This document shows, piece after piece, positions 19,801-49,973 of a DNA stretch of 49,973 nt (position 1 is the stretch's first letter; every line of letters begins with the position of its first letter). The DNA lies in NCBI GenBank assembly GCA_031257775.1, contig JAIROA010000057.1, positions 1 to 49,973 on the forward strand, read 5' to 3'. The notes beneath the pieces were generated by a model. That model was not told the origin of the DNA, ran no database searches, and saw only the letters and a list, made by a program, of their open reading frames with translations. This stretch comes from Synergistaceae bacterium. GTDB taxonomy: Bacteria; Synergistota; Synergistia; Synergistales; Synergistaceae. Position numbers and translations under genes: made by a program.

Positions 19801-20856
19801 CTATTCGCCAATCGCGGCCAATACTTCCTGTTGCGCGTCTTTTACGTCCCCTCTGTGAACGGCTATGGCGTAGCCTGTGCTGGCAACGCGCCTGTCCAGG
19901 CAGAAACGGCACTCCGCCGCCTCCTCGCCTGTGCATATTTTGTCCTCGTAAAGCTCGTAGAGCTTTCTGACGCCGACGGGCGACAGATTGGGCATGACGA
20001 CGTTTGCCCCGTGCGTCAGGCCAAGTTCCCTGCCGTTGGGCGCTATGGTGCCGAGCGCGGTCGTGGCCGGCAGGAGCGCGTAAGGGAACATCAGCCTGAT
20101 GATGGATAACAGCCTGAGCGACAGTTCGAGCGAGCCGCTCTTGAAGTCCTTAAACGGCGTCTCTTTGTGCGTGATGTATGGCCCTATGCCTATCATTGCC
20201 GGGCGCAGCTCCTGCAGGAAGCGGATATCGGCAATGATGCTGGAGACCGTCTGATAGGGCGAGCCGACCATAAACCCGGCGCCTACCTGGTATCCGATCT
20301 CTTTTAAATTCCAAAGGCACTCCTTGCGATTCGCCAGGCTCATGGACTCCGGGTGAAGCATCCGGTAGTGCGTCTCATCCGCCGTCTCATGCCGGAGCAG
20401 ATAGCGATCCGCCCCCGCGTCGAAGATCGCCTGATAGCTCGCCTTGGGCCTCTCGCCGAGCGACAGCGTGATGGCGCAGTCGCCATGACGCGCTTTTATG
20501 AGGGACACTATTTCGCACATCAATTCGTCCGTGTAATAAGGATCTTCCCCGCCTTGCAGGACGAATGTCCGGAATCCCAGCCCGTAGCCCTCGTCGCAGC
20601 AGGAAAGTATCTGCTCCTTGCTCAGCCTGTAGCGTTTTACGGCCTCGTTGCTCTGCCTGATGCCGCAGTAGAAGCAGTTGTTTTTGCAGTAGTTGGAAAA
20701 TTCGATGAGGCCGCGTATGTAGACGTCCTTCCCGTAGACGCTCTGACGCACCCTGTCGGCATTTCGCGCCAATTCCGCGTCATGCCTGTCCGTGGCGATA
20801 AGCTCCGCAAGCTCCCCGTCGCTCAGATTCATTTCGCGCGTTAATTTATCTATCAT
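19801..20856 (-). CDS. hydE: HydE-like radical SAM enzyme ([FeFe]-hydrogenase H-cluster maturase family)
   Basis: 351 residues. Radical SAM cluster CX3CX2C at Cys57/61/64 (NYCKNNCFYCGIR), then VLQGGEDP near 119 and the HydE hallmark LGLTHGANVVMPNLSP near 300. HydE acts early in making the dithiomethylamine/CN/CO part of the H-cluster. HydF, HydG and a hydrogenase are not in the window, and its neighbours are sulfur genes, so a hydrogenase role is family-based. GAGGTGA precedes the ATG. Confidence 0.85.
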   Translation of the reverse strand: MIDKLTREMNLSDGELAELIATDRHDAELARNADRVRQSVYGKDVYIRGLIEFSNYCKNNCFYCGIRQSNEAVKRYRLSKEQILSCCDEGYGLGFRTFVLQGGEDPYYTDELMCEIVSLIKARHGDCAITLSLGERPKASYQAIFDAGADRYLLRHETADETHYRMLHPESMSLANRKECLWNLKEIGYQVGAGFMVGSPYQTVSSIIADIRFLQELRPAMIGIGPYITHKETPFKDFKSGSLELSLRLLSIIRLMFPYALLPATTALGTIAPNGRELGLTHGANVVMPNLSPVGVRKLYELYEDKICTGEEAAECRFCLDRRVASTGYAIAVHRGDVKDAQQEVLAAIGE

Positions 20857-25264: not shown

Positions 25265-25418
25265 ATATTCCTAGTAAACACATATGTATATAAAATATAG
25301 ACGGCGAGGTGGATCTTAAGCCAAATCTGCCGTGAATTGTTTGCATTTTGACTTTTGCCATGCGACTTATAGGAAAAATGATGACATGCGTAATTATCTC
25401 AGAACAAGGATGGATAAT

Positions 25419-26174
25419 ATGATCGAACTGAAAAATGTCCACAAGTCTTTTGGTAAAAACAAGGTTTTGAAAGGCGTAACGGTTCGTGTTGAAAACGGGG
25501 AAGTCATCGTCATTTTGGGAGCGAGCGGCTCCGGCAAAACGACACTTTTGCGTTGCCTCAACTTTTTGGAGAGAGCCGACGAAGGTGAACTGACGATTCA
25601 CGATTTTCACGTGAATTTTCACCAGGCGACGCGTAAAGACATACTTGCCGTCCGCCGGCGCACGGCGTTTGTCTTTCAGAATTACAACCTTTTTTTGAAT
25701 CAGACCGCGTTGAAAAATGTTATGGAGGGACTCGTGACGGCGCGCAAAATGCCGAAAGTCGAAGCCGAGAAAATAGCTGGTGCCGCTCTTGGCAAAGTTG
25801 GCTTGAGCGGCAAATATGACGCTTATCCGCACCAGCTTTCCGGCGGCCAGCAGCAGCGTGTGGCAATAGCGCGCGCTATCGCCCTCAAGCCGGACGCCAT
25901 CTTGTTCGACGAACCCACTTCCGCGCTGGATCCTGAATTGGTAGGAGAGACGCTCAACGTCATCAAGCGTGTCGTTTGTGACGAGAATATCGCTTCGATT
26001 GTCGTTACGCACGAAATGTCATTTGCTTCTGAAGTCGCGAGTCAAGTGTTTTTTATGGACGATGGAGTGATCGCTGAACAGGGGACTCCCCGCGAGATTT
26101 TCACGCGGCCGAAAGAGGAGCGGACTAAACAGTTTTTGCGGCGTATTCTTCCGGATACGGACTATCAAATATGA
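25419..26174 (+). CDS. Polar amino-acid ABC transporter ATP-binding protein (GlnQ/TcyN type)
   Basis: 251 residues. Walker A GASGSGKT near 35, Q-loop [11 protein letters not shown] near 89, signature [15 protein letters not shown] near 140, Walker [14 protein letters not shown] near 161. It drives import with the two permeases and binding protein downstream. The ATG at 25419 has AAGGA 8 bases upstream and gives the usual start [12 protein letters not shown]; an upstream GTG at 25332 would add 29 unlikely residues. Confidence 0.92.
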
Positions 26175-26187
26175 AGGGGATGGTAAT

Positions 26188-26901
26188 GTGATGGCCTATA
26201 CGGGCTGGAGAGCGAAGATCGGCGTTTTGGCGCCGACGACTGGAGCGGCGGTGGAAAACGATTTCCACCGTTACGCGCCGGACGGAGTCGACATAATCAC
26301 GACGCGGATACCTTTCGACGGGCCAACGCCGAAAGGTCTGCGCGATCAGGCAGATCGTCTCGAACAGGTTTCAGAGGTGTTTCGGGGCAGGGAAATCGAT
26401 TTGATCGTTTTCGCCTGTACGTCCGGAAGCCTTATCGGCGGGCCCGATTTTGACAAGGAGTGTGCCCTCCGCATACAAAAGGGCGCTGGCGACATTCCGG
26501 TTGTAACGACTGCCGGGTTGCTCGTGGACGCTTTCAGAACCGCCGGGGCCTCGAAGTTGACCGTATTTACGCCGTATCCGGCGGATACGACGGAAGCCGT
26601 TAAGATATTCCTCGAGGCGAACGGCGTTTCAGTGCCGCACATAGAGATCATTCCGGGGGCTTTTGAACAGACTGCCCATCATATTTTCCGATATTTGAGG
26701 AAAAGGAGCGGGTTGTTTGACGGTGACGCGGTATTCCTGAGCTGTACGGGGTTGGACGTACTTGAGATTATCGAACCTGCTGAGACAGATTTCGGGCTGC
26801 CGGTTTTCACAAGCAACCAGATTACCTTATGGGGTAGCCTGCGCAAAGCCGGAGTAAAGGAGAAAATAAGCGGCATAGGCTCGCTGTTGCTTCGGCATTG
26901 A
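26188..26901 (+). CDS. Asp/Glu racemase-superfamily enzyme (maleate isomerase/arylmalonate decarboxylase-like)
   Basis: 237 residues. Two catalytic-type cysteines: Cys77 in VFACTSGSLIGG and Cys186 in LSCTGLDVLEII. Maleate cis-trans isomerase and racemases of the superfamily use such a pair; arylmalonate decarboxylase keeps one, so isomerase or racemase chemistry is the better guess. FTPYPADTT near 127 is also typical of this branch. It sits inside an ABC importer operon, between ATPase and binding-protein genes, so it probably acts on the imported compound. GTG 26188 or ATG 26191; AAGGGGA lies 8 bases before the former. Confidence 0.75.
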   Translation: MMAYTGWRAKIGVLAPTTGAAVENDFHRYAPDGVDIITTRIPFDGPTPKGLRDQADRLEQVSEVFRGREIDLIVFACTSGSLIGGPDFDKECALRIQKGAGDIPVVTTAGLLVDAFRTAGASKLTVFTPYPADTTEAVKIFLEANGVSVPHIEIIPGAFEQTAHHIFRYLRKRSGLFDGDAVFLSCTGLDVLEIIEPAETDFGLPVFTSNQITLWGSLRKAGVKEKISGIGSLLLRH

Positions 26902-26957
26902 TTTAGCGTAGCGTAATGAGTTTAAGCATACATATTCAAAAAAAGGGGTGTTGGTTT

Positions 26958-27794
26958 ATGAAGCGGAAGTTTTTCCAAGTAACCGCGATTTTCGCGGCAG
27001 CGTTAATATTATCAGTGCCGTACTCTTCGCGCGGCGAGGCGGGCCAAAGTGCGCGCGAGATTATAGTCGCTGTCGGAAGCGCTTCGAATCCGATAGGTTA
27101 CATAGACGTTAAAGGAGAAATCAAGGGTTATGACCCCGCGGTACTGAGAGCGGTTGACGATCTGCTCCAGCAATATACGTTCAAGTTCGAGGCGACCGAA
27201 ATGAAGAATATCTTAGTCGGGCTGGAGGTGGGACAATACGATATTGGCGCTCACATATTCACGTGGACTCAGGAACGCGCGAATACGTTCGTCGTTGGCT
27301 CACGGCCTTACGGTTCGCATAATTACGGCCTTGCCGTAGTGAAGGGCAGGAAGGACATACAATCTTTCCGTGACCTCGAGGGTAAAAAAGTCATAACCGA
27401 TACCGGCAGCGCCGAATCATTTTATTTGAACAAATATAATGAGGAAGCGGCAAAGACCCCGATCGAGATCGTGTTCGGGGAAGTCACGACGGACGCAGTA
27501 GTTAAGGGGCTGCTCGAAGGGCGCTATGACGTGAAAATAGCGCAGATGTCCACATTCAAGAGATATCTTTCAGCTTATCCTGATTCGCTTGAGCGCGTTG
27601 GGAAAGATAACATTATACCCGGGTATTATTACCACTACTTTGCGAAAGGCCAGGAGCAACTGCGCGACGACGTGGACGCGGCTATCCAGCAGTTGAAGGA
27701 CAGCGGACGTCTCCGCGAACTCAGCATTGAGTACCTGGGCGACGATTACACTCTGAACGAGGATATAAAAGATCCAGGTCATTGGGAGTATTAA
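26958..27794 (+). CDS. Amino-acid ABC transporter substrate-binding protein, family 3
   Basis: 278 residues. Signal peptide (MKRKFFQVTAIFAAALILSV, cleavage near residue 25-30), then the family-3 pattern: IIVAVGSASNPIGYIDVKGEIKGYDPAVLRAV and DLEGKKVITDTGSAESFYL. Relatives bind amino acids, cystine or opines (OccT/NocT). The ligand is not readable. ATG 26958 is taken because the signal peptide begins there and AAGGGGTG lies upstream. Confidence 0.88.
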   Translation: MKRKFFQVTAIFAAALILSVPYSSRGEAGQSAREIIVAVGSASNPIGYIDVKGEIKGYDPAVLRAVDDLLQQYTFKFEATEMKNILVGLEVGQYDIGAHIFTWTQERANTFVVGSRPYGSHNYGLAVVKGRKDIQSFRDLEGKKVITDTGSAESFYLNKYNEEAAKTPIEIVFGEVTTDAVVKGLLEGRYDVKIAQMSTFKRYLSAYPDSLERVGKDNIIPGYYYHYFAKGQEQLRDDVDAAIQQLKDSGRLRELSIEYLGDDYTLNEDIKDPGHWEY

Positions 27795-27796
27795 AC

Positions 27797-28504
27797 ATGT
27801 ATAAGACGATCGATCTTGTACGCGTTTTGGAAGACTTGCCAATCGTCGCGCCTGGGATACTCAATACGATGTTTATTGTGATCCTGGCAAGCGCGCTTGG
27901 CATTGCTGTCGGCCTGTTGCTGGCTGTGGCGCGGGTCAACCGCGTGCCCGTACTGAACCAGCTTGCGGTCGTTTACGGTTCTTTCATGCGCGGCACGCCG
28001 GTGATCGTCCAGCTTTTCATAGTTTATTACGGTTTGCCGATGCTTTTTAAGCAATTCTTCAATATTAACCTGGCGCGTATGGCGAAGATAAACTTTGTTA
28101 TCGTCGCGTATGGATTGAACACATCAGCGGTGTACAGCGAGATTTTCCGGGGGGCGCTGTCGGGCGTTCCAATCGGTCAGCTTGAGGCGGCATTCTCCGT
28201 CGGGTTGACCAGATGGCAAGCGTTTCGGCGGATTATAGCGCCGCAGGCGTTTTTGTCGGCGCTCCCCGGCATATCTTCGTGCGTTATCGGTCTTATCGAA
28301 AATACATCGTTAGCGTTTACCATCGGCGTGGTGGACATTATGGGCAAGGTCAAGGTAATCGGCTCGGCCACAGAGCATTACATGGAGGCTTACATATGCG
28401 CTGCTATATACTTCATAGCCATGAGCCTTATCTTGAGACGCATATTCTCGGCTGTAGAAAAAGTGCTGCAATCAAGAGTAGCCGGGATAGGTAGTGCCGC
28501 GTGA
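27797..28504 (+). CDS. Amino-acid ABC transporter permease 1
   Basis: 235 residues, five membrane spans. Typical HisM/GlnP family: early LNTMFIVILASALGIAVGLLLA, FMRGTPVIVQLFIVYYGLP near 60, and the EAA loop QLEAAFSVGLTRWQAFRRIIAPQA near 132. It starts two bases after the binding-protein stop. Confidence 0.92.
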   Translation: MYKTIDLVRVLEDLPIVAPGILNTMFIVILASALGIAVGLLLAVARVNRVPVLNQLAVVYGSFMRGTPVIVQLFIVYYGLPMLFKQFFNINLARMAKINFVIVAYGLNTSAVYSEIFRGALSGVPIGQLEAAFSVGLTRWQAFRRIIAPQAFLSALPGISSCVIGLIENTSLAFTIGVVDIMGKVKVIGSATEHYMEAYICAAIYFIAMSLILRRIFSAVEKVLQSRVAGIGSAA

Positions 28505-29202
28505 AAGTTCAGAATTTTATAAACGCATTGCTGAGCGGGCTCAATTATATGCCGGCGACATTGTGGCTCACGTTTTTGCCATGCGTGGTCGGAGTAGCTG
28601 CTGGGTTGCTTATAGCAGCGCTCCGCGTATATAAAATCCGTTTCTGGGCTCGTCTATTCGGCGTCGTAATACCGATTATTAAGGCGATCCCGTCGATTCT
28701 AGTCATGTACATGACTTGGTTTCTGTTTTCGGACACGTTCAATATCGTTGCGGAACGCGCTGGCTGGGCAATCCGATCGAAAGATATAGATATTATCTGG
28801 GTCGGCATTATATCTTTGACGCTGACAGCGATCTCTATAATTTCGGAGACCTTTCGCGGGGCGTTCCTGTCAATCGGAAGCGGTCAGTACGAAGCTGCCT
28901 TTTCGGTTGGCCTGACGCGTACCCAAACAATGCGGCGAGTGATCATTCCGCAGATGCTGCCGGTTGCATGGCCTCTATTATGCTCGAATATCATAACGAT
29001 ATTGAAAGCGTCGTCGCTAGTATACCTGATCGGCGTGATGGAAATGTTGAACGGAAGCCTGCTGTCAGCTACCTCTAACTATAGCTATCTGCCCGCGTAT
29101 TTAGGGGCTGCCGCGCTCTATTGGGTGTTGAGCATCATCATCGAGCAGTGTTTCAGACTGACAGGCAAGCGGTTCCGGGCGTTCCACCGAGGCGCGGCCT
29201 AG
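28501..29202 (+). CDS. Amino-acid ABC transporter permease 2
   Basis: 233 residues, paralogue of permease 1. EAA loop YEAAFSVGLTRTQTMRRVIIPQMLP near 130; KAIPSILVMYMTWFLF near 60 takes the place of the usual RGTP segment. Its GTG overlaps the stop of permease 1 (GTGA), so the two are probably made in equal amounts as a heterodimer. Confidence 0.9.
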   Translation: MKVQNFINALLSGLNYMPATLWLTFLPCVVGVAAGLLIAALRVYKIRFWARLFGVVIPIIKAIPSILVMYMTWFLFSDTFNIVAERAGWAIRSKDIDIIWVGIISLTLTAISIISETFRGAFLSIGSGQYEAAFSVGLTRTQTMRRVIIPQMLPVAWPLLCSNIITILKASSLVYLIGVMEMLNGSLLSATSNYSYLPAYLGAAALYWVLSIIIEQCFRLTGKRFRAFHRGAA

Positions 29203-29275
29203 CTTTTGAACGCGCGGTATTTCAGGTGGCAAAGACTGGCATCAAACAAATCGGTTTTGGAGTAGGGTGATTATT

Positions 29276-30370
29276 ATGAGTAAACGAATATTGATTATCG
29301 GATATGGCGCGACGGCCCAATCTCTGGCGGCTATCTATACGTTGCGCGGGTTTGACGTCACGCTGGCATTCGGATCGAAGGAATCCGAAAAGCATTTCAA
29401 CGTCATTTGTGATAAGGGCGGAATATTATTGCGCGGGAATGGGCTTCGCGGCCTGGCCCTGCCCAAACTCACGTCCGACGTTGCTGATGCTTTGAAAAAC
29501 TCCGATATTATTTTTGTTAGCGTCATAGCTAATTTTCACGAAGAAATCGCCAGGATCATCTCGAACGGACTCAGAGACGGGCAGTTGATATTAATAGGCC
29601 CGGGGAATGCCGGAGCGCTTGTGTTCAGCAAGGTTTTCAGGGAATTGAGCGTAAGGGCGCGGGTTATTATCGCGGAAACGCAGGGCAATTTCCTCCCTGC
29701 CAGAATTACGGGGCCTGCTGAAGTCATCGCGGCGGCGGCGCTTCGCTCGAAAAAAATAGCCGCTTTCCCGTCCTCCGATACGCCTGAGGCAATAGCCGCG
29801 CTCGACGGCATCCTCGAAACAGATCCGCTTGCGCACGTTTTTGAAACGACGCTGAACAGTCCTAATGTCATTAACCATCTCGTTTCAACTGTCCTCAACG
29901 CTTCAAAAATTGACGATAAAGGCAAGGATTTTCGTCTGTTTATCGACGGCCTGACCGACAGCGTGTTAAAAGGCCTTGAAGCGGCAGAGGCGGAATGGGC
30001 GAACGTCTTGAGCGCGCTTGGCTATTGGCGTATGCCGTCATCGGTAGATCATCTGAGGATCGTGGCCGAACGCGGGAAATATCCCGAATTTGACGCGTTC
30101 CGTGGCCTGGACGGGCCGGATTCAATTCGTCACCGCTACGTGACTGAAGACGCGAGCGGCGCGGTTACCTTGCTTGTGTCGCTGGCACGGCTCGCCCGCG
30201 TCCCAGTCCCGTTTACGGAAGGGCTGATAGCACTCGTTTCCGCTCTGAACAGCGATGATTATTACGGTAAGGGAAGAAATCTCGACAATCTTGGTCTGGG
30301 CGGCAAAACGTTGCCGCAGATTCATGAAATTTTAGCGAAGGGGCGAGGTGCAATAACTGATGTCATTTAA
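29276..30370 (+). CDS. Opine (octopine/nopaline) dehydrogenase-family NAD(P) enzyme
   Basis: 364 residues. Rossmann start RILIIGYGATAQSLAA, and the octopine/nopaline dehydrogenase C-terminal domain with FETTLNSPNVINHLVST near 190 and the helical segment around ALGYWRMPSS near 245. The family reduces imines between an amino acid and a 2-oxo acid, or runs the reverse, splitting an opine. With an importer upstream, the oxidative (catabolic) direction is reasonable. ATG 29276 follows AGGGTGA. Confidence 0.78.
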   Translation: MSKRILIIGYGATAQSLAAIYTLRGFDVTLAFGSKESEKHFNVICDKGGILLRGNGLRGLALPKLTSDVADALKNSDIIFVSVIANFHEEIARIISNGLRDGQLILIGPGNAGALVFSKVFRELSVRARVIIAETQGNFLPARITGPAEVIAAAALRSKKIAAFPSSDTPEAIAALDGILETDPLAHVFETTLNSPNVINHLVSTVLNASKIDDKGKDFRLFIDGLTDSVLKGLEAAEAEWANVLSALGYWRMPSSVDHLRIVAERGKYPEFDAFRGLDGPDSIRHRYVTEDASGAVTLLVSLARLARVPVPFTEGLIALVSALNSDDYYGKGRNLDNLGLGGKTLPQIHEILAKGRGAITDVI

Positions 30371-31736
30371 TTCTCATCAAATTACAACGGATATAACGAG
30401 GACGCTTGCCCGCTACATAAAAGGAGCGAAATTCGAAGACTTCCCGCCTGCCGTCGTCGAACGGGTAAAGCTCATGCTGTTGCATACGATCGGATCAGCG
30501 TTGTGCGGGACTGCGCTGTGGCAATATCACGATGCCGCTGCCATAGCGAAAGAGTCGAGCTCTGGCGATGCCACGGGAGGCGCGACGCTCTGGGGGGATG
30601 GCAAAAAGGTAAGCGCTGAGGCTGCCGCTTTTGTCGCGGGGCTTTTGAGCGACCTGCTGGATTGGGAGGACTGCTCGTGGGGCGGCCATCCTTCGGCTGG
30701 CGTTGTCCCGGCGTCGGTAATCGGCGCTGAGATATATAAGAAAAGCGGCAAGGAACTCCTTACGGCCGCGATCCTTGGCTACGAGATCTATCAGCGCTCG
30801 TCGCGCGCGGCACCGGGTAATATCGTGGGGAACAACTCCTTTGCCGCCATTGTGCCGCTCATTAAATATTTGGATTTAGACGAAAGAGAGATCAACCGCG
30901 CTTTCGGCATAGCGACGGCTTGCGCTATTCTCCCAGTCAACTGCCATGAGGAAACAATGTCCGACGCGCTGAACTATCTCTACGGGCTTCGCGCTGAAAG
31001 CGCGTTTCTTCAGGCAAAGACGGCGCTTTACGGAATTGAGAACATGGAGGACGCGCTTGACGACCCAACGGCTTTTACCGCGCACATGCGCAGCCAGAAC
31101 CCCGAGTTTTTCACAAAAGACCTGGGCGTCGAGTATTACTTAATGGACATACTGATTAAACACTGGCCGGCAAATATGTATGTGCAGACTTACGCTGAGC
31201 TTGCGGATAGGCTGCGCCGCAAATACGGTTTCGCTCCCGATGACATCGAGGAGATACTTATAGATCCTGTGGTCGAATATCGTTACTGGTTCTCGGAAAC
31301 GGGCTTCCTGTCGCTTACGCAAGCGCAGTTCAGCATACCTTACGTTATATCGGCCGTTCTTCACCATCCTGAACCCGGCGCTGTCTGGTATGAGGAAAAA
31401 ACTCTGACAGACTCGGGCGTCGTCGCGCTTATGAACAAAGTCCGGGCGGTTTCTTTTATCAAGAACACGCCGGGGCACCTGTACCATTTGATAAAGGGCT
31501 ATCACCCCAAGAAGTTTATGACAGTGCGGCTCAAGGATGGCACTGAGTACCGAGATGGCATTTTCACTCAACCAGGCCACCCCTCTTACATGTTGACGCG
31601 CGATGAATTCGAGGAGCGGTTTCGTATAATGGCAAAAAAAGCGTTAACCCCCGAAAAAATTGAGTGGATAATAGATTTTCTCTCGGATCTCGAAAACCAA
31701 CCAGACGCTTCTCTTCTGGCCGGGTTTCTTTATTAA
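30360..31736 (+). CDS. MmgE/PrpD-family protein 1
   Basis: 458 residues. Family shape throughout: an N-terminal helical bundle, LLSDLLDWEDCSWGGHPSAGVVPA near 95-120, and KHWPANMYVQTYAE near 265. MmgE/PrpD enzymes include 2-methylcitrate dehydratase, cis-aconitate decarboxylase and iminodisuccinate epimerase; here DWED takes the place of the common D-F-D-D before HP. The substrate is unknown. It overlaps the end of the opine-dehydrogenase gene by 11 bases. Confidence 0.82.
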   Translation: MSFNSHQITTDITRTLARYIKGAKFEDFPPAVVERVKLMLLHTIGSALCGTALWQYHDAAAIAKESSSGDATGGATLWGDGKKVSAEAAAFVAGLLSDLLDWEDCSWGGHPSAGVVPASVIGAEIYKKSGKELLTAAILGYEIYQRSSRAAPGNIVGNNSFAAIVPLIKYLDLDEREINRAFGIATACAILPVNCHEETMSDALNYLYGLRAESAFLQAKTALYGIENMEDALDDPTAFTAHMRSQNPEFFTKDLGVEYYLMDILIKHWPANMYVQTYAELADRLRRKYGFAPDDIEEILIDPVVEYRYWFSETGFLSLTQAQFSIPYVISAVLHHPEPGAVWYEEKTLTDSGVVALMNKVRAVSFIKNTPGHLYHLIKGYHPKKFMTVRLKDGTEYRDGIFTQPGHPSYMLTRDEFEERFRIMAKKALTPEKIEWIIDFLSDLENQPDASLLAGFLY

Positions 31737-31768
31737 ATTCATTAACCTTACTAAGGAGAATAGCCGCT

Positions 31769-33193
31769 ATGCGATATAACCGCTTGTTGAAAGATAACGA
31801 TTTTTTGGTTGAGACGGAATACACAAAAACTTTGAGCGAATTTGCCGCGAGCCTGCGTTACGAGGATATTCCCACGACCGTCCTTGAACGGGCGAAAATG
31901 ATACTGTTGCAAACGATAGGCGTTTCATTGGCGGCAAAGGATTGCGATATTGCCCGAAAGATAAGAAAAATCGCTCTGGAAGCCAATAACGGTAACGGCG
32001 GCCCCGCGACAGCCTGGATAACCGGCGAAAAAATCTCGGCGGCTTCCGCAGCCCTGATTGCCGGCACAGTCTCAGATTTGCTTGATTGGGAGGATTGCTC
32101 GTGGACAGGGCACCCGTCCGCCGGAATTATTCCGGCCGCGTGGATAACGGCAGAAGAGCGCGGCAAGAGCGGGAAAGATCTCTTAACGGCGATCGTGACC
32201 GCATACGAGGTTTACCAGCGTATCGCTAATGCCGCGCAGCCCGGCCCAAGACGGAATGAACTTGGCTGGGGACTTACAAGCTGGCAAATATTTGGCGTTT
32301 CGGCAGCCGCGGCCAAAATTTACGGATTTGACCCTCGCCGCGTCGATCAGACAATCGGCATGTCTGTCGAGAGCAGCACGATCCCAGCTTGCTATCACAA
32401 TACTACAATGTCCGATTTCTACCATTACGAACACGGTTACCGTGCGAGAACCGGCGTGCTCATTGTCAAAGCGGTAGAAAAAGGCGTACATAACCAGCGC
32501 GATACGCTGGATGCCCCGAATGGTTATTGGGACATGATAACCGACGAGCCAAAGCTGGAATGGCTTCTGAAGGACTTGGGCAAGCAATGGCTGATAATGG
32601 AGACCCTGCTTAAACATTGGCCGGCGAATATGTGGGTTCAAGCGCCAGCGGAGGCACTTTCTGAAATCGTCGCCAATAACCGGATAATCCCGGAAGAGAT
32701 AGAGGAAATAGTCGTAGATCCCGGTATTGAAGACCGCATGTGGATTCCTGAAGAGGGATTCCGATCAGTGACGCAGGCAGAATTCAGCGTGCCGTTTGTG
32801 TTGTCCGCCCTTGTTCACGATCCTGTCCCTGGCGCGGCGTGGTATTCCAAGGCGAATCTATCGAATCCATCCGTAATACGGCTCGCTCAACGCGTCAAAG
32901 AGGGTGCTTCGAGACAGATTTCGCCGGGCGGAGGCTTCGCGAAATTCCGCCTGGGCGATTATCCAGCTCATACTGTTACAGTAAAAACGACCGACGGGCG
33001 CGTATTAACCGCGAAGGCCGGAAAACATCCAGGTCACCCGCATAATATGCTGACCACACGTCAATTTGTCGAACGATTCGAATTGCAAGCGTCGCCGGTT
33101 TTGCGAGGCGAGCGGCTTAAGAGTGCGGTCGATATACTGCTGAATATCGAGGGACAAGCAAATATCGCTGAATTAAGCCGCGTTGTGAGCTAA
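31769..33193 (+). CDS. MmgE/PrpD-family protein 2
   Basis: 474 residues. Paralogue of the gene before it: same DLLDWEDCSWTGHPSAG near 105 and KHWPANMWVQAPAE near 283, but clearly diverged, with an extra segment around PGPRRNELGWG near 157. Two complete members side by side suggest two related steps or a heteromeric enzyme. The ATG at 31769 has TAAGGAG 10 bases upstream; the frame also runs further upstream inside gene 1 without family similarity. Confidence 0.82.
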   Translation: MRYNRLLKDNDFLVETEYTKTLSEFAASLRYEDIPTTVLERAKMILLQTIGVSLAAKDCDIARKIRKIALEANNGNGGPATAWITGEKISAASAALIAGTVSDLLDWEDCSWTGHPSAGIIPAAWITAEERGKSGKDLLTAIVTAYEVYQRIANAAQPGPRRNELGWGLTSWQIFGVSAAAAKIYGFDPRRVDQTIGMSVESSTIPACYHNTTMSDFYHYEHGYRARTGVLIVKAVEKGVHNQRDTLDAPNGYWDMITDEPKLEWLLKDLGKQWLIMETLLKHWPANMWVQAPAEALSEIVANNRIIPEEIEEIVVDPGIEDRMWIPEEGFRSVTQAEFSVPFVLSALVHDPVPGAAWYSKANLSNPSVIRLAQRVKEGASRQISPGGGFAKFRLGDYPAHTVTVKTTDGRVLTAKAGKHPGHPHNMLTTRQFVERFELQASPVLRGERLKSAVDILLNIEGQANIAELSRVVS

Positions 33194-33229
33194 GAATTTA
33201 TCAGCGCAGAGAATAAAGGACGGCGCGAT

Positions 33230-34114
33230 ATGTCCCGGCAAGGCGTCTTTGCAAAAGTGTTCGGCTATATCGCTGAAGGAGTTGGGGTTGACGCGCCTTT
33301 ATACGATAGGACGCTCATAAAAGCGGAAGCGGCGGAATATTTACGCAGAATAGGCTTGGATCGTTTTGCCCGTCGTCTTTCTGGCGAATCCGGCGTATGT
33401 TGGGGACTTGCGGAATTAAATGCCATGATTCTGGCCCATCAACACTGTGTGCCGTTTGAGAATCTCGATACGTTTTTGTATAATCGCGTTCCAAGTCTGC
33501 GAACTGACGACCTTTTCGATAAAATTGTCATGCGTCGTCGCGGAGGGTGGTGTTTTGAGTTAAACAGCCTGTTTTTTTCGCTTATTTCAGCGACAGGTTA
33601 TTCCGTGACCGCTCATACCGCCGACGTTTGCCGGAGCGGCGCGTTTGCGTCAGTGAATAATTTGTCCGCTCATCGCGTAAACCTTGTCCGTATTGACGAC
33701 AAGGCGTATTTTTGCGATGTCGGCTTTGGCGGTACAATGCCGGGGTTCGCGGTCGAGTGGAGAGATTACATGCCGGAATCTGGCGCGGGCGGAGTTTTTT
33801 TCTTTGAGCCGGGCATCGACGGACACAAGACACTTGTCCACATGAGCGGGAAAACGAATAAAGCGTTGCTCCGCGTAGGCCCGAAACCTTTTCGCGGCGA
33901 GGACTTTCTTGAAGCTAACAGATATACCGCACTTTCCGGAGAATCGCGGTTTAACAAATTTCGCCTTGCTTATTTGAAGAAAGCTGACGGACTCCTGCGT
34001 CTCAAGGGAGACGAATTGATACTCGAAAGGGACGGCGCGGAGGAGAAAGTCGCGGTTGACGAATCAAAAATCAGGTATGTCCTTGGTCATAAGTTTGGAA
34101 TAAGGCTTGATTGA
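33230..34114 (+). CDS. Arylamine N-acetyltransferase (NAT)-family protein
   Basis: 294 residues. Catalytic triad is complete: Cys108 in RRRGGWCFELN, His148 in LSAHRVNLV, Asp163 in YFCDVGFGG. PFENLDTFLYNR near 75 is also a NAT hallmark. It has about 30 extra N-terminal residues before the usual YLRRIGLDR start. NATs transfer acetyl or acyl groups to amines, and some act as amide synthases. As the last gene of this operon it may acylate an amine from the imported compound, or detoxify it. AAAGGA lies upstream. Confidence 0.85.
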   Translation: MSRQGVFAKVFGYIAEGVGVDAPLYDRTLIKAEAAEYLRRIGLDRFARRLSGESGVCWGLAELNAMILAHQHCVPFENLDTFLYNRVPSLRTDDLFDKIVMRRRGGWCFELNSLFFSLISATGYSVTAHTADVCRSGAFASVNNLSAHRVNLVRIDDKAYFCDVGFGGTMPGFAVEWRDYMPESGAGGVFFFEPGIDGHKTLVHMSGKTNKALLRVGPKPFRGEDFLEANRYTALSGESRFNKFRLAYLKKADGLLRLKGDELILERDGAEEKVAVDESKIRYVLGHKFGIRLD

Positions 34115-45352: not shown

Positions 45353-46214
45353 AAGCACGCTAGCCACGATATGGGCCTCGCTTGGCGCGAACGTGGTCGA
45401 CGCGGATGCGCTGGCGAAGGCGCAGTGGCAAAAGCCGGAAGTGTTAAGCCAGGCCGTCGGGCGGTGGGGCGGCGCAGTGTCCCGGGACGGCGCGCCTGTC
45501 CCGGCGGAGATAGCAAAGAGGGCTTTTGCCAGCGAGGAAGAGTATAGATTCATGAATTCGCTCATACATCCCGGCGTCAGGGCCGACATGCGCAGGAAAG
45601 CCGCGTCGTTCCGGGGGCTGTCCGCGGTCGAGATACCGCTTCTGTTCGAGGCCGGGGGCTTCGACTGGATAGACTATATCGTTTACGTGAGCGCGCCCTG
45701 CGATCTGCGGGGCCAGAGGAACGCCTCAAGGGGGCTGGACGGCGCTGAGATAGCGCGGCGCGAGCGCTTTATGGCAAGCAGGGACGAAAAGAAGGCGAAA
45801 TCCGACCTTGTGCTGGTCAATGACGGGGATGCCGAAAGATGGAAGGCAGTCGCCCGAAGCCAGGGGGAAAGGCTCATCGAAATGGCCTCCGTCCGCGAGC
45901 TTACGACATTCTGCGGCTCGCTGGAGGACGCTCAAAGGATAGCGTCGCTCCTCGTGCGGGAACATCTTGCCGCCTGCGCCAATATCTCTCCCGTGAATAG
46001 CTGCTATTACTGGAATGGCAGCATATGCAACGAGCAAGAGTGGAGGATGTCGTGCAAAACGACGGAGCGGGCGCTTGTTCCCGCGATGGAGTGCATCAGG
46101 GCAAATCACCCCTATGAGCTTCCCGCGATAACGTCGGCGGAGCTGTCGCGCTCCGATATCCGCACCTTGGCGTGGATAGCTGACGCGGTTTCTAGGTCAA
46201 TAGAAAGGATGTGA
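45312..46214 (+). CDS. coaE: Fusion: dephospho-CoA kinase (CoaE) + CutA-like domain
   Basis: 300 residues. Residues 1-190 are CoaE: P-loop GDVGAGKST at 7-15, VDADALAKAQW near 32, the EIPLLFEAG motif near 100. CoaE makes CoA from dephospho-CoA. Residues of about 197-300 are CutA1-like: TFCGSLEDAQRIASLLVREHLAACANISP, YYWNGSICNEQEWRMSCKTT, and NHPYELPAI, matching the YWW-G, K-T and HPYE-P pattern of CutA. CutA trimers are linked to divalent-metal tolerance, but their biochemical role is unsettled. The reading frame is continuous across the junction with no internal ribosome site I can see. ATG 45312 lies inside the helicase's 3' end and follows AAGGA. Confidence 0.85.
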   Translation: MLTVAVTGDVGAGKSTLATIWASLGANVVDADALAKAQWQKPEVLSQAVGRWGGAVSRDGAPVPAEIAKRAFASEEEYRFMNSLIHPGVRADMRRKAASFRGLSAVEIPLLFEAGGFDWIDYIVYVSAPCDLRGQRNASRGLDGAEIARRERFMASRDEKKAKSDLVLVNDGDAERWKAVARSQGERLIEMASVRELTTFCGSLEDAQRIASLLVREHLAACANISPVNSCYYWNGSICNEQEWRMSCKTTERALVPAMECIRANHPYELPAITSAELSRSDIRTLAWIADAVSRSIERM

Positions 46215-46221
46215 TGGATGG

Positions 46222-46854
46222 ATGGGATTACTGTCGAATTTCGGCGATCCGAACTGGATAGCCGATTTCCTTCTCAGGCTTCCGGCTGTTCTGTGGGCGC
46301 TCTCTTTCCATGAATTCTGCCACGGATGGGTCGCGTACAAACTAGGCGACAGGACGGCCGCGTTCCAGGGGCGCCTCTCGCTCAACCCGCTGGAGCACCT
46401 CGACCTGGTAGGCACGATCATGCTCGTCGTCCTTGGGTTCGGCTGGGCAAAGCCGGTTCCGGTAAATTCGAGATACTTTAAAAACCCGCGCAGGGACATC
46501 GCGCTCGTCAGCGCGGCTGGCGCGGCAGGGAATTTTCTGACGGCCATAGCCTGCGGGCTCGTTGCGGGCGCGATGCCGTTTTTGATGCACGGCACGATGG
46601 GGCGCTTTTTGGCGCATCTTCTATTTATTAATATAGGCCTGGGCGTTTTCAACCTGATCCCCGTACCGCCGCTGGACGGATCGAAGATTTTGGGCGTCAT
46701 GCTTCCTCCGTCCGCCATGAGGTCGTTTTTTTTCCTGGAACGCTACGGCATGATAATCATCCTCGTCCTTGCCTTCACCGGGATCCTTCAAGTGATAATG
46801 GGCCCGATAGTGATACTGATGGCAAGGCTTCTCGCAAGATCATTCTTTTATTAG
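46222..46854 (+). CDS. M50 (site-2-protease-like) membrane metalloprotease
   Basis: 210 residues, five or so membrane helices. Zinc site H30-E31-x-x-H34 in SFHEFCHGW and the second M50 motif NLIPVPPLDGSKIL near 142. This short class without PDZ domain is widespread and of unknown substrate. AAGGATGTGA is 8 bases upstream of the ATG, seven bases after the preceding stop. Confidence 0.88.
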   Translation: MGLLSNFGDPNWIADFLLRLPAVLWALSFHEFCHGWVAYKLGDRTAAFQGRLSLNPLEHLDLVGTIMLVVLGFGWAKPVPVNSRYFKNPRRDIALVSAAGAAGNFLTAIACGLVAGAMPFLMHGTMGRFLAHLLFINIGLGVFNLIPVPPLDGSKILGVMLPPSAMRSFFFLERYGMIIILVLAFTGILQVIMGPIVILMARLLARSFFY

Positions 46855-46871
46855 GGAGGCAATATCTTATA

Positions 46872-47678
46872 ATGAAAATTCTTCTCACGAACGATGACGG
46901 CGTGATCTCGCAGGGAATCCAGATGATCTCAAAACTCCTGGCGGACAAGGGGTGGCTCTCCGCCGTCGTGGCGCCGGATCGCGATCGCAGCGGCGCGGGG
47001 CATTCGCTCACCGTCGAGCAGCCTGTGCGAGTGCGCCCGCTCGACCCGGGGATGTACCCCGGCGGAGTTTTGGCCTATGCCTGCGACGGCACCCCGACGG
47101 ACTGCGTGAGCATAGGGCTTGACGCGCTCTTCCCTCAGGCGGATTTCGTCGTGTCGGGGATAAACCATGGGCCAAACTTAGGCGACGACGTGACGTACTC
47201 CGGCACAGTCTGCGCGGCGCTAGAGGGCGTGATATTAGGCAGGCCCGCCGTCGCGGTGTCGCTCTGCACGAAGCCCGGCGACACGTTCGGGCATAACATG
47301 ACGGCCGCCATAACCGCGATGATGGTTCTGGAGTACGTCGAAAAGGAAAGGCTTCCGGAGGGCGTATTGCTGAACGTAAACGTCCCGAACGTCATGATAC
47401 GCGACATAAAGGGATTCATGCTCACGAGCAGGGGGAAGAGGAGATACATGGATAAATTCACCTGCGTAAAGGATCCGAGAGGCAAGGACTGCTACTGGCT
47501 GGCCGGAGACGTGGAAGAAGACCATGCCCCAGGCACGGACGTCACCGCCGTCGCGGAGGGCTACGTGTCCGTAACGCCGATATATCTTGACATGACAAAC
47601 TATTCGCTCCTATACGACATGAAATCTGCCGGAGTGGAGGAGAACCTGACGAAATTACTCAAGAAAAATTCAAAATAA
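46872..47678 (+). CDS. surE: 5'/3'-nucleotidase SurE
   Basis: 268 residues. SurE motifs: NDDG at 7-10, APDRDRSGAGHSLT near 36, DGTPTDCV near 75, and SGINHGPNLGDDVTYSGTV near 96. It removes phosphate from nucleoside monophosphates, active in stationary phase. GGAGGC precedes the ATG. Confidence 0.94.
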   Translation: MKILLTNDDGVISQGIQMISKLLADKGWLSAVVAPDRDRSGAGHSLTVEQPVRVRPLDPGMYPGGVLAYACDGTPTDCVSIGLDALFPQADFVVSGINHGPNLGDDVTYSGTVCAALEGVILGRPAVAVSLCTKPGDTFGHNMTAAITAMMVLEYVEKERLPEGVLLNVNVPNVMIRDIKGFMLTSRGKRRYMDKFTCVKDPRGKDCYWLAGDVEEDHAPGTDVTAVAEGYVSVTPIYLDMTNYSLLYDMKSAGVEENLTKLLKKNSK

Positions 47679-47722
47679 CCTCATTCGTCCTTATTCGTCC
47701 GTCAATATTATATGCCCGTTGC

Positions 47723-47790
47723 GTTGCCGTCGCTGTGACGGCAACAGTGCTGGCCCCCGCCTCCACGCGACGAGGGCCTAAAAATCTTTT
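47723..47790. terminator. Two hairpins between surE and the convergent surface-protein gene
   Basis: Hairpin one: perfect 9 bp stem GTTGCCGTC/GACGGCAAC (47723-47745), loop of 5, no T-tail. Hairpin two: GGCCC/GGGCC from about 47754, followed by TAAAAATCTTTT. Together they probably end transcripts from one or both sides. Confidence 0.5.
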
Positions 47791-47820
47791 CAATGATCTA
47801 TTGCTTTGCGCACTCCAACT

Positions 47821-49973
47821 CTATGGATTGACACGGCAGCCCCTGTTGCTGGGAGGCCCGTCATCATAGCCTATCCCGTATTCCACCAACGTGCCGCTCT
47901 GGCTGAACTCGTTGTCAGACACCGACGCATCTCTGTCATAGTTATAAGCGATTATACCGCCCTTATGTACCAGTCCGCTGGCAGTTGTGCCAGTGCTATT
48001 CCCGCCGACGATAAAACCGCTGTTTTTTTCGCAGCCGGATACTTCGCCGACACCATCCATAAACCCGACGATGCCACCAGCCATTACATCGCTAGAATCG
48101 GCGTAAGCAGAAATATTGGCGGACGAACGGGAGTTCGTCACTATGCCGTTTGCATAGCCAGCAACACCGCCTGCTGTGCTCATTCTGATGCTAGAAGAGT
48201 AAGAGTTCGATTCATGCGATTCAGCGAACACATAACCGCTGAAAGTGCATTCTTCTATCTTTCCATAACCCATCCCAGCGATCCCGCCGGCAAACGCCGA
48301 CGGCCCCAAAGAGGGAAAATTCACTTCAGGTAATGAAAGATATACAGTACTCCCTCTGTCGTTTGCGGCGAAGACCGCGCCATTGACCCTGCATCCGGAT
48401 ATTACTGTACCGCCCCCATCCAAGCCGACAATGCCTCCCGCAATAATGGCGGAGACGGAAACGCTGTCGATGTGCCTGTCAAATGTAGAGCAGCTCGCCA
48501 CAAAGCCGCCCTTAGTCGCTCCCGCTATCCCCCCCGCAAGCAGGGCAGCGGAAACACTGCCGTCGAACGCACAGGCATTTATACTGCCTTCGCTGTACCC
48601 GGCGATGCTTCCCGCGCGGCTCCCTGAAACGGATGAGACGTTGATGTTGACGCCCGCCATGTTGAGGCTGGTGATAAACCCTTCAGCCCCCACAGCTCCG
48701 AACAATCCGGCATAGTTGTCGCTATTTGTTCTGGTTATCGTCATGTCCCATATAGTGTGCCCATTGCCGTCGAATGTGCCCCGGAAAAGACGTTGGTATG
48801 TCCCAATCGGCGTCCACTCTTTCCCGGTAAGATAAATGTCCCTATCGATATAAACAGTCTTATTCCGAAAATCAGTTCCGTTATTTACCAGATACGCCAG
48901 TCCGGCGAGCTGATCGGCGTTGGCAATCGTGAAAGTTTCCGCAGACGTGTTGTTGTAATACCACTGAGTGCTGTTGTTGGCTGGCGTTGTCCCGCCGCTG
49001 TTGGTGCTGTCCAGGAATATAGGTATCACACTCGTCTCGGATGTAATAGTGATCTGCCGGAGGGTGGAGGACGCTGTGTTGTCGGAATTATGCGCCTCGA
49101 CGAAATAAGTGCCGGGCATATACGCGTACATGGACTTATATTCCCCGTTGGCGTCGGTTTTGCCTGATCGGATGAGCTGGGTTGCTGCGCTGTCAGAGTA
49201 AATTCTCACACCCGCGTTATTCACCGGGGCACCGTGATGGAATACCTGGAAAGTGATTGTGGGATAATTCGGATCAGGGTTGTCAGGGGTAGATGCGGCA
49301 GTGTTCAGTATCCTGTAATATTTAGCCGGTGTCAATGCCTCCCCTAAATCAGCCTCATGAGCATACAAGTTCTCCGCCGTATCGGGATCAGCAGAAGGTG
49401 TTAAGAATGCAGTCCAATACTGTTGAAGTTCATTTTTTCCAATTTCAGAAAGTAAATCACGGTATTTCTTGCTGCCAATCACTTCGGAAAGAGGAACCAT
49501 GCCTTCACCTGGAATATTAACCCATATTTGACTGGTTGGAGTGGATTTTACAATATCAATTCCAGCACCGTATTCGTATGCCGCCTCTACAAGCCCGGTG
49601 CAATTAAAGGCACCCTCAACATTACCTTTAACGAAGTCCTCGTGCATCATTCCGTATCTGGTACCAGCAAAATACCATATATTTACATATTTTTTGCCTA
49701 CCTGATCACTTGCCCACTGGACTGCTTTTTGGCGTTGAGCATCAGTAACTCCAGCCGGGTAAAATGCTCCCATATATGTATTGTCTCCAAAGGTCCCCAA
49801 TATACCGCCGTAAACATGTATACTCACTTTACCGTCGCCGATAAAAGGAGGATTCGCCTCAGTGACATATATCGTCTCCCCTGTTTCTGATACCCCTGTC
49901 ACTATTCCAACATGGCCGGGCGTCCATCTTCCGCTGTCATGTTTCCTGATAAGTATGTCTCCTTCTTTAGGGA
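47821..49973 (-). CDS. Large surface protein, permuted NlpC/P60-like domain plus GLUG repeats (5' end outside window)
   Basis: The frame is open to the window edge, so at least 717 residues; the GTG at 49902 is internal, since GDILIR and GHVGIV just upstream belong to the first domain. Domain 1 looks like a permuted papain-fold enzyme (YiiX/peptidase C92 style): His in PGHVGIVTG, acid in YVTEA, Cys in AFNCTGLVEAAYE, in that order. Domain 2, near ITFQVFHHGAPVNNAGVRIYSD, is a carboxypeptidase-regulatory/Ig-like fold. The C-terminal 330 residues hold several GLUG-type repeats (AGG-I/V-AG or VG spaced about 45 residues). This mix suggests an exported envelope or adhesin protein with a peptidoglycan/lipid-directed activity. 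Confidence 0.75.
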   Translation of the reverse strand, partial: PKEGDILIRKHDSGRWTPGHVGIVTGVSETGETIYVTEANPPFIGDGKVSIHVYGGILGTFGDNTYMGAFYPAGVTDAQRQKAVQWASDQVGKKYVNIWYFAGTRYGMMHEDFVKGNVEGAFNCTGLVEAAYEYGAGIDIVKSTPTSQIWVNIPGEGMVPLSEVIGSKKYRDLLSEIGKNELQQYWTAFLTPSADPDTAENLYAHEADLGEALTPAKYYRILNTAASTPDNPDPNYPTITFQVFHHGAPVNNAGVRIYSDSAATQLIRSGKTDANGEYKSMYAYMPGTYFVEAHNSDNTASSTLRQITITSETSVIPIFLDSTNSGGTTPANNSTQWYYNNTSAETFTIANADQLAGLAYLVNNGTDFRNKTVYIDRDIYLTGKEWTPIGTYQRLFRGTFDGNGHTIWDMTITRTNSDNYAGLFGAVGAEGFITSLNMAGVNINVSSVSGSRAGSIAGYSEGSINACAFDGSVSAALLAGGIAGATKGGFVASCSTFDRHIDSVSVSAIIAGGIVGLDGGGTVISGCRVNGAVFAANDRGSTVYLSLPEVNFPSLGPSAFAGGIAGMGYGKIEECTFSGYVFAESHESNSYSSSIRMSTAGGVAGYANGIVTNSRSSANISAYADSSDVMAGGIVGFMDGVGEVSGCEKNSGFIVGGNSTGTTASGLVHKGGIIAYNYDRDASVSDNEFSQSGTLVEYGIGYDDGPPSNRGCRVNP

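Follow-up and report, generated by a model that had tools for sequence, protein, structure and literature searches.

The closest described systems are permuted papain-like enzymes and GLUG proteins. (i) In YaeF/YiiX-like proteins (PF05708, Peptidase_C92), such as YiiX (2if6) and BcPPNE (3kw0), the active-site residues share the order His, acid, Tyr, Cys and are accompanied by a GD motif (PMC3142127), which is a feature of the NlpC/P60-CHAP cluster (PMC10318531). The role of the signature Tyr of NlpC/P60 enzymes has been described, and the pocket of YiiX contains a fatty acid (PMC3142127). (ii) Tox-Act1/TseH, LnsA, and the LRAT/HRASLS proteins follow the same permuted active-site logic (PMC12994826, PMC7387801). 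Tox-Act1 is a phospholipase (PMC12994826), TseH was active on phospholipids in one assay, and LnsA is involved in lipoprotein N-acylation (PMC12994826, PMC3142127, PMC7387801). Several permuted papain-like enzymes are in this way emerging as lipid acting, and one of them is an antibacterial toxin. (iii) Members of the permuted C97/PPPDE family cleave isopeptide bonds (PMC10318531). (iv) In the insect-gut archaeon Methanimicrococcus blatticola, GLUG repeats (PF07581) are part of acquired membrane-bound proteins, which are predicted to lie outside the cytoplasm (PMC9723798).

The window, that is, the whole stretch of 49,973 nucleotides analyzed here, ends in a gene that probably encodes an exported lipoprotein, rapidly evolving and horizontally acquired, in which a permuted papain-like enzyme is combined with adhesion-type repeats. 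Each part of this protein is of a known kind and the combination is new to us; we recognized no description of a permuted papain-like domain joined to GLUG repeats in the open-licence PMC literature. With the C92 proteins it shares the order of residues, the GD motif, and a similar spacing, 29 residues between Tyr95 and Cys124 compared with 27 between Tyr127 and Cys154 of BcPPNE (PMC3142127). It differs from them in scoring below the Pfam cutoff, in the Cys motif FNCTGLV instead of YCTELVW, in the GLUG fusion, and in a lipoprotein leader, seen in its ortholog; FNCTGLV resembles the canonical DCSGLV as much as it resembles the C92 motif. Unlike Tox-Act1/TseH, LnsA, and LRAT/HRASLS, the window protein is a multidomain protein with GLUG repeats, and scans of Pfam, NCBIfam, and PHROGs gave no membership in these families. 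Compared with CHAP (PF05257) and NlpC/P60 (PF00877) enzymes, its His half is CHAP-like and its Cys half NlpC/P60-like, with the halves in the opposite order, and relative to the archaeal GLUG proteins it adds a thiol-enzyme domain.

The features of the gene are listed in Table 1. The window is the whole of one contig (C13) of a genome estimated to be 80% complete (G000). The frame, which is on the minus strand, reaches down to position 47821, and its 5' side is truncated by the contig boundary at position 49973; the gene's own 5' end was sought in this genome and not found. The sole near relative found is an ortholog in a sister species of the same genus (G002, 85% complete), which has approximately 400 additional residues upstream of the part present in the window (contig overlap counted once). 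By comparison, the missing 5' part of the window gene would encode the leader and about 400 residues. The frame, the named motifs, and the GLUG region noted in the earlier sequence-only reading are all present, and its interpretation is partly supported; the region it described is real but, as judged from the ortholog, is the C-terminal portion of a protein that extends further upstream. The horizontal history, the raised dN/dS, the further lipoproteins with similar leaders, and the recombinase module described below could be recognized only by comparison with other genomes. A two-row profile matched 3 of 185 genomes of the phylum, namely, the source genome, G002, and G154 of the same order; the G154 match is a short decayed fragment preceded by a stop and was used solely for Cys conservation. 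Among 389 genomes reaching beyond the phylum, 5 were matched: these three, G298 (E = 8.3e-5), which is related only at the level of the domain Bacteria and hence belongs to another phylum, and G382, a false match that was dropped, its frame being antisense to a gene that we take to be HisS. A hairpin resembling that 3' of the window gene was also seen by eye 3' of the stop of the G002 ortholog, and the hairpin may be a terminator.

Table 1. Features of the lipoprotein gene and its 3' flank in the window
Feature	Position	Strand	Basis or remark
Lipoprotein-gene fragment	47821..49971	minus	Single open frame, 716 codons plus stop, 5' side open
Predicted permuted papain-like domain, residues 1-160, His half then Cys half	49492..49971	minus	3' limit approximate
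Gly4-Asp5, GD motif opening the His half	49957..49962	minus	Invariant in 3/3 aligned homologues
Candidate catalytic His20 (GHVGIV)	49912..49914	minus	Invariant in 3/3
Candidate third polar residue Glu38 (EANP)	49858..49860	minus	Identical in G002
Candidate Tyr95 (GKKY), at the NlpC/P60 signature-tyrosine position	49687..49689	minus	Invariant in 3/3
Candidate nucleophile Cys124 (FNCTGLV)	49600..49602	minus	Conserved in 4/4
Linker, residues 161-235	49267..49491	minus	Diverged well beyond the other parts (dS 0.75)
Carboxypeptidase-regulatory-like beta-sandwich, residues 246-312 (weak)	49036..49236	minus	Pfam CarboxypepD_reg
GLUG repeat region, residues 337-676	47944..48963	minus	Weak GLUG stretches, repeat-unit starts, homologue
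GC-rich hairpin 3' of the stop	47752..47778		By eye; between the lipoprotein gene and convergent surE

Residues 1 to 160, which are 87.5% identical to those of the G002 ortholog, very likely form a divergent domain with a permuted papain-like order. The isolated His half matched Pfam CHAP with 27.0 bits (cutoff, 26; E = 6.7e-6), and the His half of the ortholog scored just under the cutoff (25.1 bits). This match involves only positions 46 to 81 of the 81 profile positions and, since it is restricted to the last 36, the Cys half must be elsewhere. On the ortholog's contig, the 217 residues that precede the domain contain no Cys. The ortholog's 5' piece contains three Cys residues (positions 2, 27, and 83, of which Cys27 lies in what we take to be the lipobox), and none of the three is part of a Cys-half motif. 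In the G298 homologue, the domain follows closely after a signal peptide identified by eye. These data thus place the Cys half after the His half. Cys124 is the sole Cys within residues 1 to 330. The sequence-only reading had made its assignment depend on the conservation of this residue, and a Cys is present in all four homologous sequences (the window, G002, G298, and the G154 fragment). The window, G002, and G298 all have the His, Tyr, and Cys, which are conserved between phyla at a sequence identity of 32%. Glu38, which lies in TEANP and corresponds to the YVTEA of the sequence-only reading, is a Glu in two of the three sequences; the G298 column holds Ile, and the Glu of its IEALG is found one column later. 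Between the window and G002, 20 of the 160 domain residues differ, none of them at position 4, 5, 20, 38, 95, or 124.

Profile comparisons gave the same order. In all 10 C92 domains compared, which likewise come from Synergistales, the Cys segment of a family profile made of three members (the window, the G002 ortholog, and G298) aligned with the C-terminal Cys motif, and it was preceded by a His-side stretch in all 6 of those reporting one. Against five canonical NlpC/P60 domains (four distinct sequences), the ones among 30 loci that passed a strict motif filter, the same segment aligned with the N-terminal Cys motif in every case, and the His stretch came after it in four of the five, which corresponds to a swapped order. 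The family-profile scores were mostly low and inside the shuffle range: two of the ten C92 sequences exceeded all 2,000 shuffles made (1,393 scored), and none of the five NlpC sequences exceeded all 1,000 (818 scored). The reciprocal test with single C92 and NlpC models resulted in the same orders, colinear with C92 and swapped relative to NlpC. With the C92 model, the window and ortholog domains were each above all 1,000 shuffles; with the NlpC model, the ortholog domain was above all 1,000, and the window domain was below 1 of 1,000. The G298 domain was outscored by 2 of 1,000 shuffles with either model. The position of the CHAP-like His half and these alignments agree with the permuted papain-like arrangement that the sequence-only reading had deduced from the order His, acid, Cys.

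The scores do not place the domain in an established family. Pfam Peptidase_C92 gave 15.1 and 15.6 bits for the window and the ortholog (E = 0.025 and 0.017, respectively) and 18.1 bits for G298 (E = 0.0029 for the domain piece, covering profile positions 40 to 127, and 0.02 for a longer piece). The window score is under the cutoff of 27, as is that of the ortholog, and the domain was therefore not filed as a C92 member. The YCTE motif of the 10 Synergistales C92 domains is absent, and FNCTGLV or FRCDGLV stands in its place. In hhalign comparisons with C92, 25 columns around the Cys were aligned with probabilities of 8% and 37% (E = 0.004 and 0.0004, each for a single comparison), and the C92 alignment itself matched YiiX 2if6 (E = 6.9e-11) and 3kw0. 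Pfam NLPC_P60 matched neither the whole protein nor its halves, and the order of CHAP, with the Cys half before the His half, was not found, and the ortholog has no Cys half upstream. Queries of PDB sequences with the domain, the Cys half, and two profiles retrieved nothing papain-like, and the NCBIfam scan gave no relevant match. AlphaFold models of the 229-residue domain region and of an 887-residue piece of the ortholog, both from two-row alignments, had a mean pLDDT of 34 and were discarded. As for mobile elements, two PHROGs families were weakly matched by the domain, one lacking an assigned function (E = 0.004 and 0.018) and the other a minor-tail family (E = 0.2 and 0.02); 162 pattern matches in viral contigs included no relative; tblastn against plasmids and phages gave one match at an E value of 0.5 and three at 0.6 to 0.7; and the G298 homologue had no plasmid match at an E value of 0.01. 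The source genome also encodes an ordinary, YiiX-like C92 protein (contig C124, 4058-4717, plus strand), located in a run of what are presumably FHA-domain- and phosphatase-like genes.

Downstream of the linker, the CarboxypepD_reg match scored 18.4 bits (E = 0.0028), under the cutoff of 32.3. The GLUG profile gave no match in the source genome at an E value of 0.001 and none for the whole protein. The C-terminal part scanned alone contained three weak GLUG stretches (15.2 bits, under the cutoff of 20.5), and the region has six repeat-unit starts of the AG(G/S)(I/V)xG kind. BLASTP aligned it with a protein from the same genus, L107, at 31% identity over 355 aligned columns (E = 1e-23), and L107 passes the GLUG cutoff with 34.7 bits. 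The GLUG fusion noted earlier is thus supported through this homologue, and the GLUG homology suggests a possible adhesin role.

The 5' piece of the ortholog lies on a second contig; an exact 119-base end is common to both contigs, and the pieces were read separately. This piece starts with the lipoprotein leader MSKKKFALWAFLSIFLFVFVAAGC, identified by eye, followed by a Gly/Ser-rich linker, and has no Pfam match above the cutoff. By homology, the window protein is probably a lipoprotein as well. The export that the sequence-only reading had assumed is consistent with this leader and with the G298 signal peptide; the window's own leader would lie beyond the contig end. An S-layer domain, which it had also considered, was not detected, since Pfam identified no SLH or other S-layer domain in the part of the protein that the window retains or in either ortholog piece. 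As to its description as a surface protein, the export signal is that of a lipoprotein, and a location on the outer surface is possible.

A similar leader recurs in four of the four genomes of the genus. The likeness is limited mostly to the hydrophobic leader and the Gly run, with E values from 2.9e-12 up to 0.18 outside the gene itself, so that a common origin of these leaders is only plausible. Proteins with a similar leader include one in G002 with a CHAP/NlpC domain in canonical order (L102; contig C28, 1198-2691, plus strand; CHAP, 26.0 bits at a cutoff of 26; NLPC_P60, 21.1 bits at a cutoff of 23), two GLUG-only proteins (G001 and G003), an alpha/beta hydrolase and an amidohydrolase (G000), and others. 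The GLUG homologue L107 (G003, contig C104, 1409-3760, minus strand) is a lipoprotein, also with a similar leader, that combines GLUG with a weak match, below the cutoff, to what we take to be a C25 protease and in this parallels the window gene. A further lipoprotein (G001, contig C101, 1633-3498, minus strand) has a BACON domain and a weak leukocidin-family match below the cutoff.

The silent divergence of the gene differs from that of its surroundings. Relative to G002, its dS is 0.186 (95% interval, 0.145 to 0.232), compared with 0.846 to 1.416 (median, 1.15) for 16 syntenic genes, whose values are 4.5 to 7.6 times higher. Without residues 161 to 235, the dS of the gene is 0.139; these residues alone give 0.75. 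Of the 41 window frames tested, 19 matched the fetched G002 stretches, namely, the lipoprotein gene, the 16 genes counted, and 2 that were dropped: 20308-20841 (dS, 0.17; dN, 0.29), which is antisense to a presumed radical-SAM gene, and 46200-46742 (dS, 0.68), antisense to a frame that we take to encode an M50-type protease. The homology between the window and G002 ends sharply at the stop codon, and the neighbors differ, with surE in the window and presumed alcohol-dehydrogenase- and RnfC-like genes in G002. Taken together, the mosaic of dS values, the end of homology at the stop, and the different neighbors suggest that the gene was transferred or exchanged after the two species had separated; we hold with high confidence that a recent event of this kind occurred in at least one of the two sister species.

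The dN/dS ratio of the gene is 0.76 (0.57 to 1.01), and the domain taken alone has a value of 0.61, with a broad interval (0.32 to 1.28). There are 266 base differences between the copies, for which some 9.2 stops would be expected if the gene were neutral; the codon alignment contains none as far as residue 649, which indicates that the frame has been kept while the protein changes fast. Past residue 649, near its 3' end, the G002 copy is frameshifted, which is either real or an assembly error. The slot after surE (47678-47821 in the window) is variable, as if it were a preferred insertion place: 3' of surE there is a transporter in G002 and a protein with what we take to be a DnaJ domain in G001, and the G003 contig ends just past a tRNA-Cys gene. 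Elsewhere in the window, about 9 kb (25320-34111) is missing from the syntenic place in G002; it presumably comprises ABC transporter genes, racemase-like and reductase-like genes, two MmgE/PrpD-like genes, and an arylamine N-acetyltransferase-like gene.

The explanation that best accounts for these data is an exported, permuted papain-like lipoprotein with acyl chemistry, GLUG-mediated binding, and recent transfer, a composite to which we assign a little less than an even chance. The protein would run from a lipid-anchored N terminus, seen in the ortholog and predicted for the window, through spacer domains to the thiol enzyme, the beta-sandwich, and the C-terminal GLUG part. In the enzyme, Cys124 would be activated by His20, with Glu38 orienting and Tyr95 in the substrate-carbonyl site, and would attack a fatty-acyl ester or amide near the membrane of its own or a neighboring cell, the outcome being acyl hydrolysis or transfer. 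The GLUG part would bind a partner surface or glycan, and rapid protein change would be as expected for an interaction protein. A GLUG-fused, fast-changing, and mobile version of such an enzyme with a lipoprotein leader points to contact with neighbors or a host. Acyl chemistry is our first choice because Tox-Act1 is a phospholipase and the YiiX pocket holds a fatty acid. With the permuted isopeptidases taken into account, an acyl-lipid substrate and a peptide or isopeptide substrate are about equally probable.

Peptide-type substrates are a serious rival because C97/PPPDE enzymes cleave isopeptides and the Cys motif is NlpC-like. With the same permuted fold, the enzyme could be an amidase or (iso)peptidase acting on peptidoglycan or proteins and engaged in wall remodeling or surface-protein processing; this has an appreciable probability, lower than that of the composite explanation above. 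It gains from CHAP being the best match of the His half, as well as from L102, the G002 lipoprotein that combines a leader of this type with a CHAP/NlpC domain in canonical order, and loses from the link to lipids of Tox-Act1, YiiX, LnsA, and, in one assay, TseH (PMC12994826, PMC3142127, PMC7387801). The same comparison disfavors the cell-wall activity proposed in the sequence-only reading (PMC12994826, PMC3142127), with the C97/PPPDE isopeptidases as a counterexample (PMC10318531). The compactness of the domain makes it suited to testing the lipid-versus-peptide question. A catalytically dead papain-like domain retained as a binding module of an adhesin is improbable: it would be compatible with the dN/dS of the domain and its wide interval and with the third polar residue out of register in G298, but His, Tyr, and Cys are conserved across phyla, and none of the changes between the sister species affects the GD motif or a candidate active-site residue.

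Two further alternatives concern the architecture and the history of the gene, and both are far less probable. If the domain were a canonical CHAP/NlpC domain with its Cys half past the contig end and FNCTGLV unrelated to it, the restriction of the CHAP match to the His half, which in CHAP comes after the Cys half, would be explained; the upstream sequence of the ortholog, lacking a Cys-half motif, and the closeness of the G298 domain to its signal peptide largely refute this. It is also very unlikely that the low silent divergence is an artefact of binning or contamination, with a fragment of one organism in two bins. Both contigs do end within the gene, and both genomes are incomplete, but the window gene shares its contig of 49,973 bases with 16 genes that are syntenic with G002, a 65,523-base contig with other neighbors carries the copy of G002, and the copies differ at 266 sites.

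A tyrosine recombinase gene (L069; G002, contig C95, 787-1613; Phage_integrase, E = 8e-26) is located beside the start of the ortholog. It is flanked by inverted repeats that match exactly over 22 bases and whose 32-base arms are separated by 763 bases. On another contig of the window's genome (C113, 8762-9555), a recombinase gene 84% identical to it (L071; dN/dS, 0.11) is enclosed by a perfect 21-base inverted repeat, 752 bases apart and unlike that of L069 in sequence. In first-order resampled controls, inverted repeats did not exceed 14 bases in 200 trials each. The gene to the right of L071, of which 249 codons remain before the contig ends, has a hydrophobic N terminus and no Pfam match; on the left, an RNase H-like gene is oriented away, so that either neighbor is a possible target. 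In G002, the recombinase is directed away from the lipoprotein gene, and in G000 it faces the truncated gene. Both are candidate self-inverting phase switches. No inversion was seen, no promoter was identified with any confidence within the recombinase segment, and the upstream region of the window gene is missing; the recombinase module was therefore kept outside the main claim. Four of five further recombinases had no inverted-repeat pair of at least 18 bases (contig ends truncate part of the flanks of two of them, L022 and L025). At L028, two imperfect pairs (71% and 80% complementary) were read as chance, and no repeat pair flanks a 65%-identical recombinase on contig C114 of G000.

A broader reading, which we consider doubtful, is that of a mobile phase-variable cassette: leader-sharing lipoproteins across the genus with interchangeable payloads (permuted papain-like, canonical NlpC/CHAP, C25-like, and hydrolases), several of them on GLUG display, would be spread horizontally and turned on and off by a small tyrosine recombinase next to the gene, which would invert itself between the 21- to 22-base inverted repeats. 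In a survey, inversions were found in one of two species of the phylum (PMC5903667). If the module beside the ortholog inverts, it would offer a phase-variation system open to testing in Synergistota.
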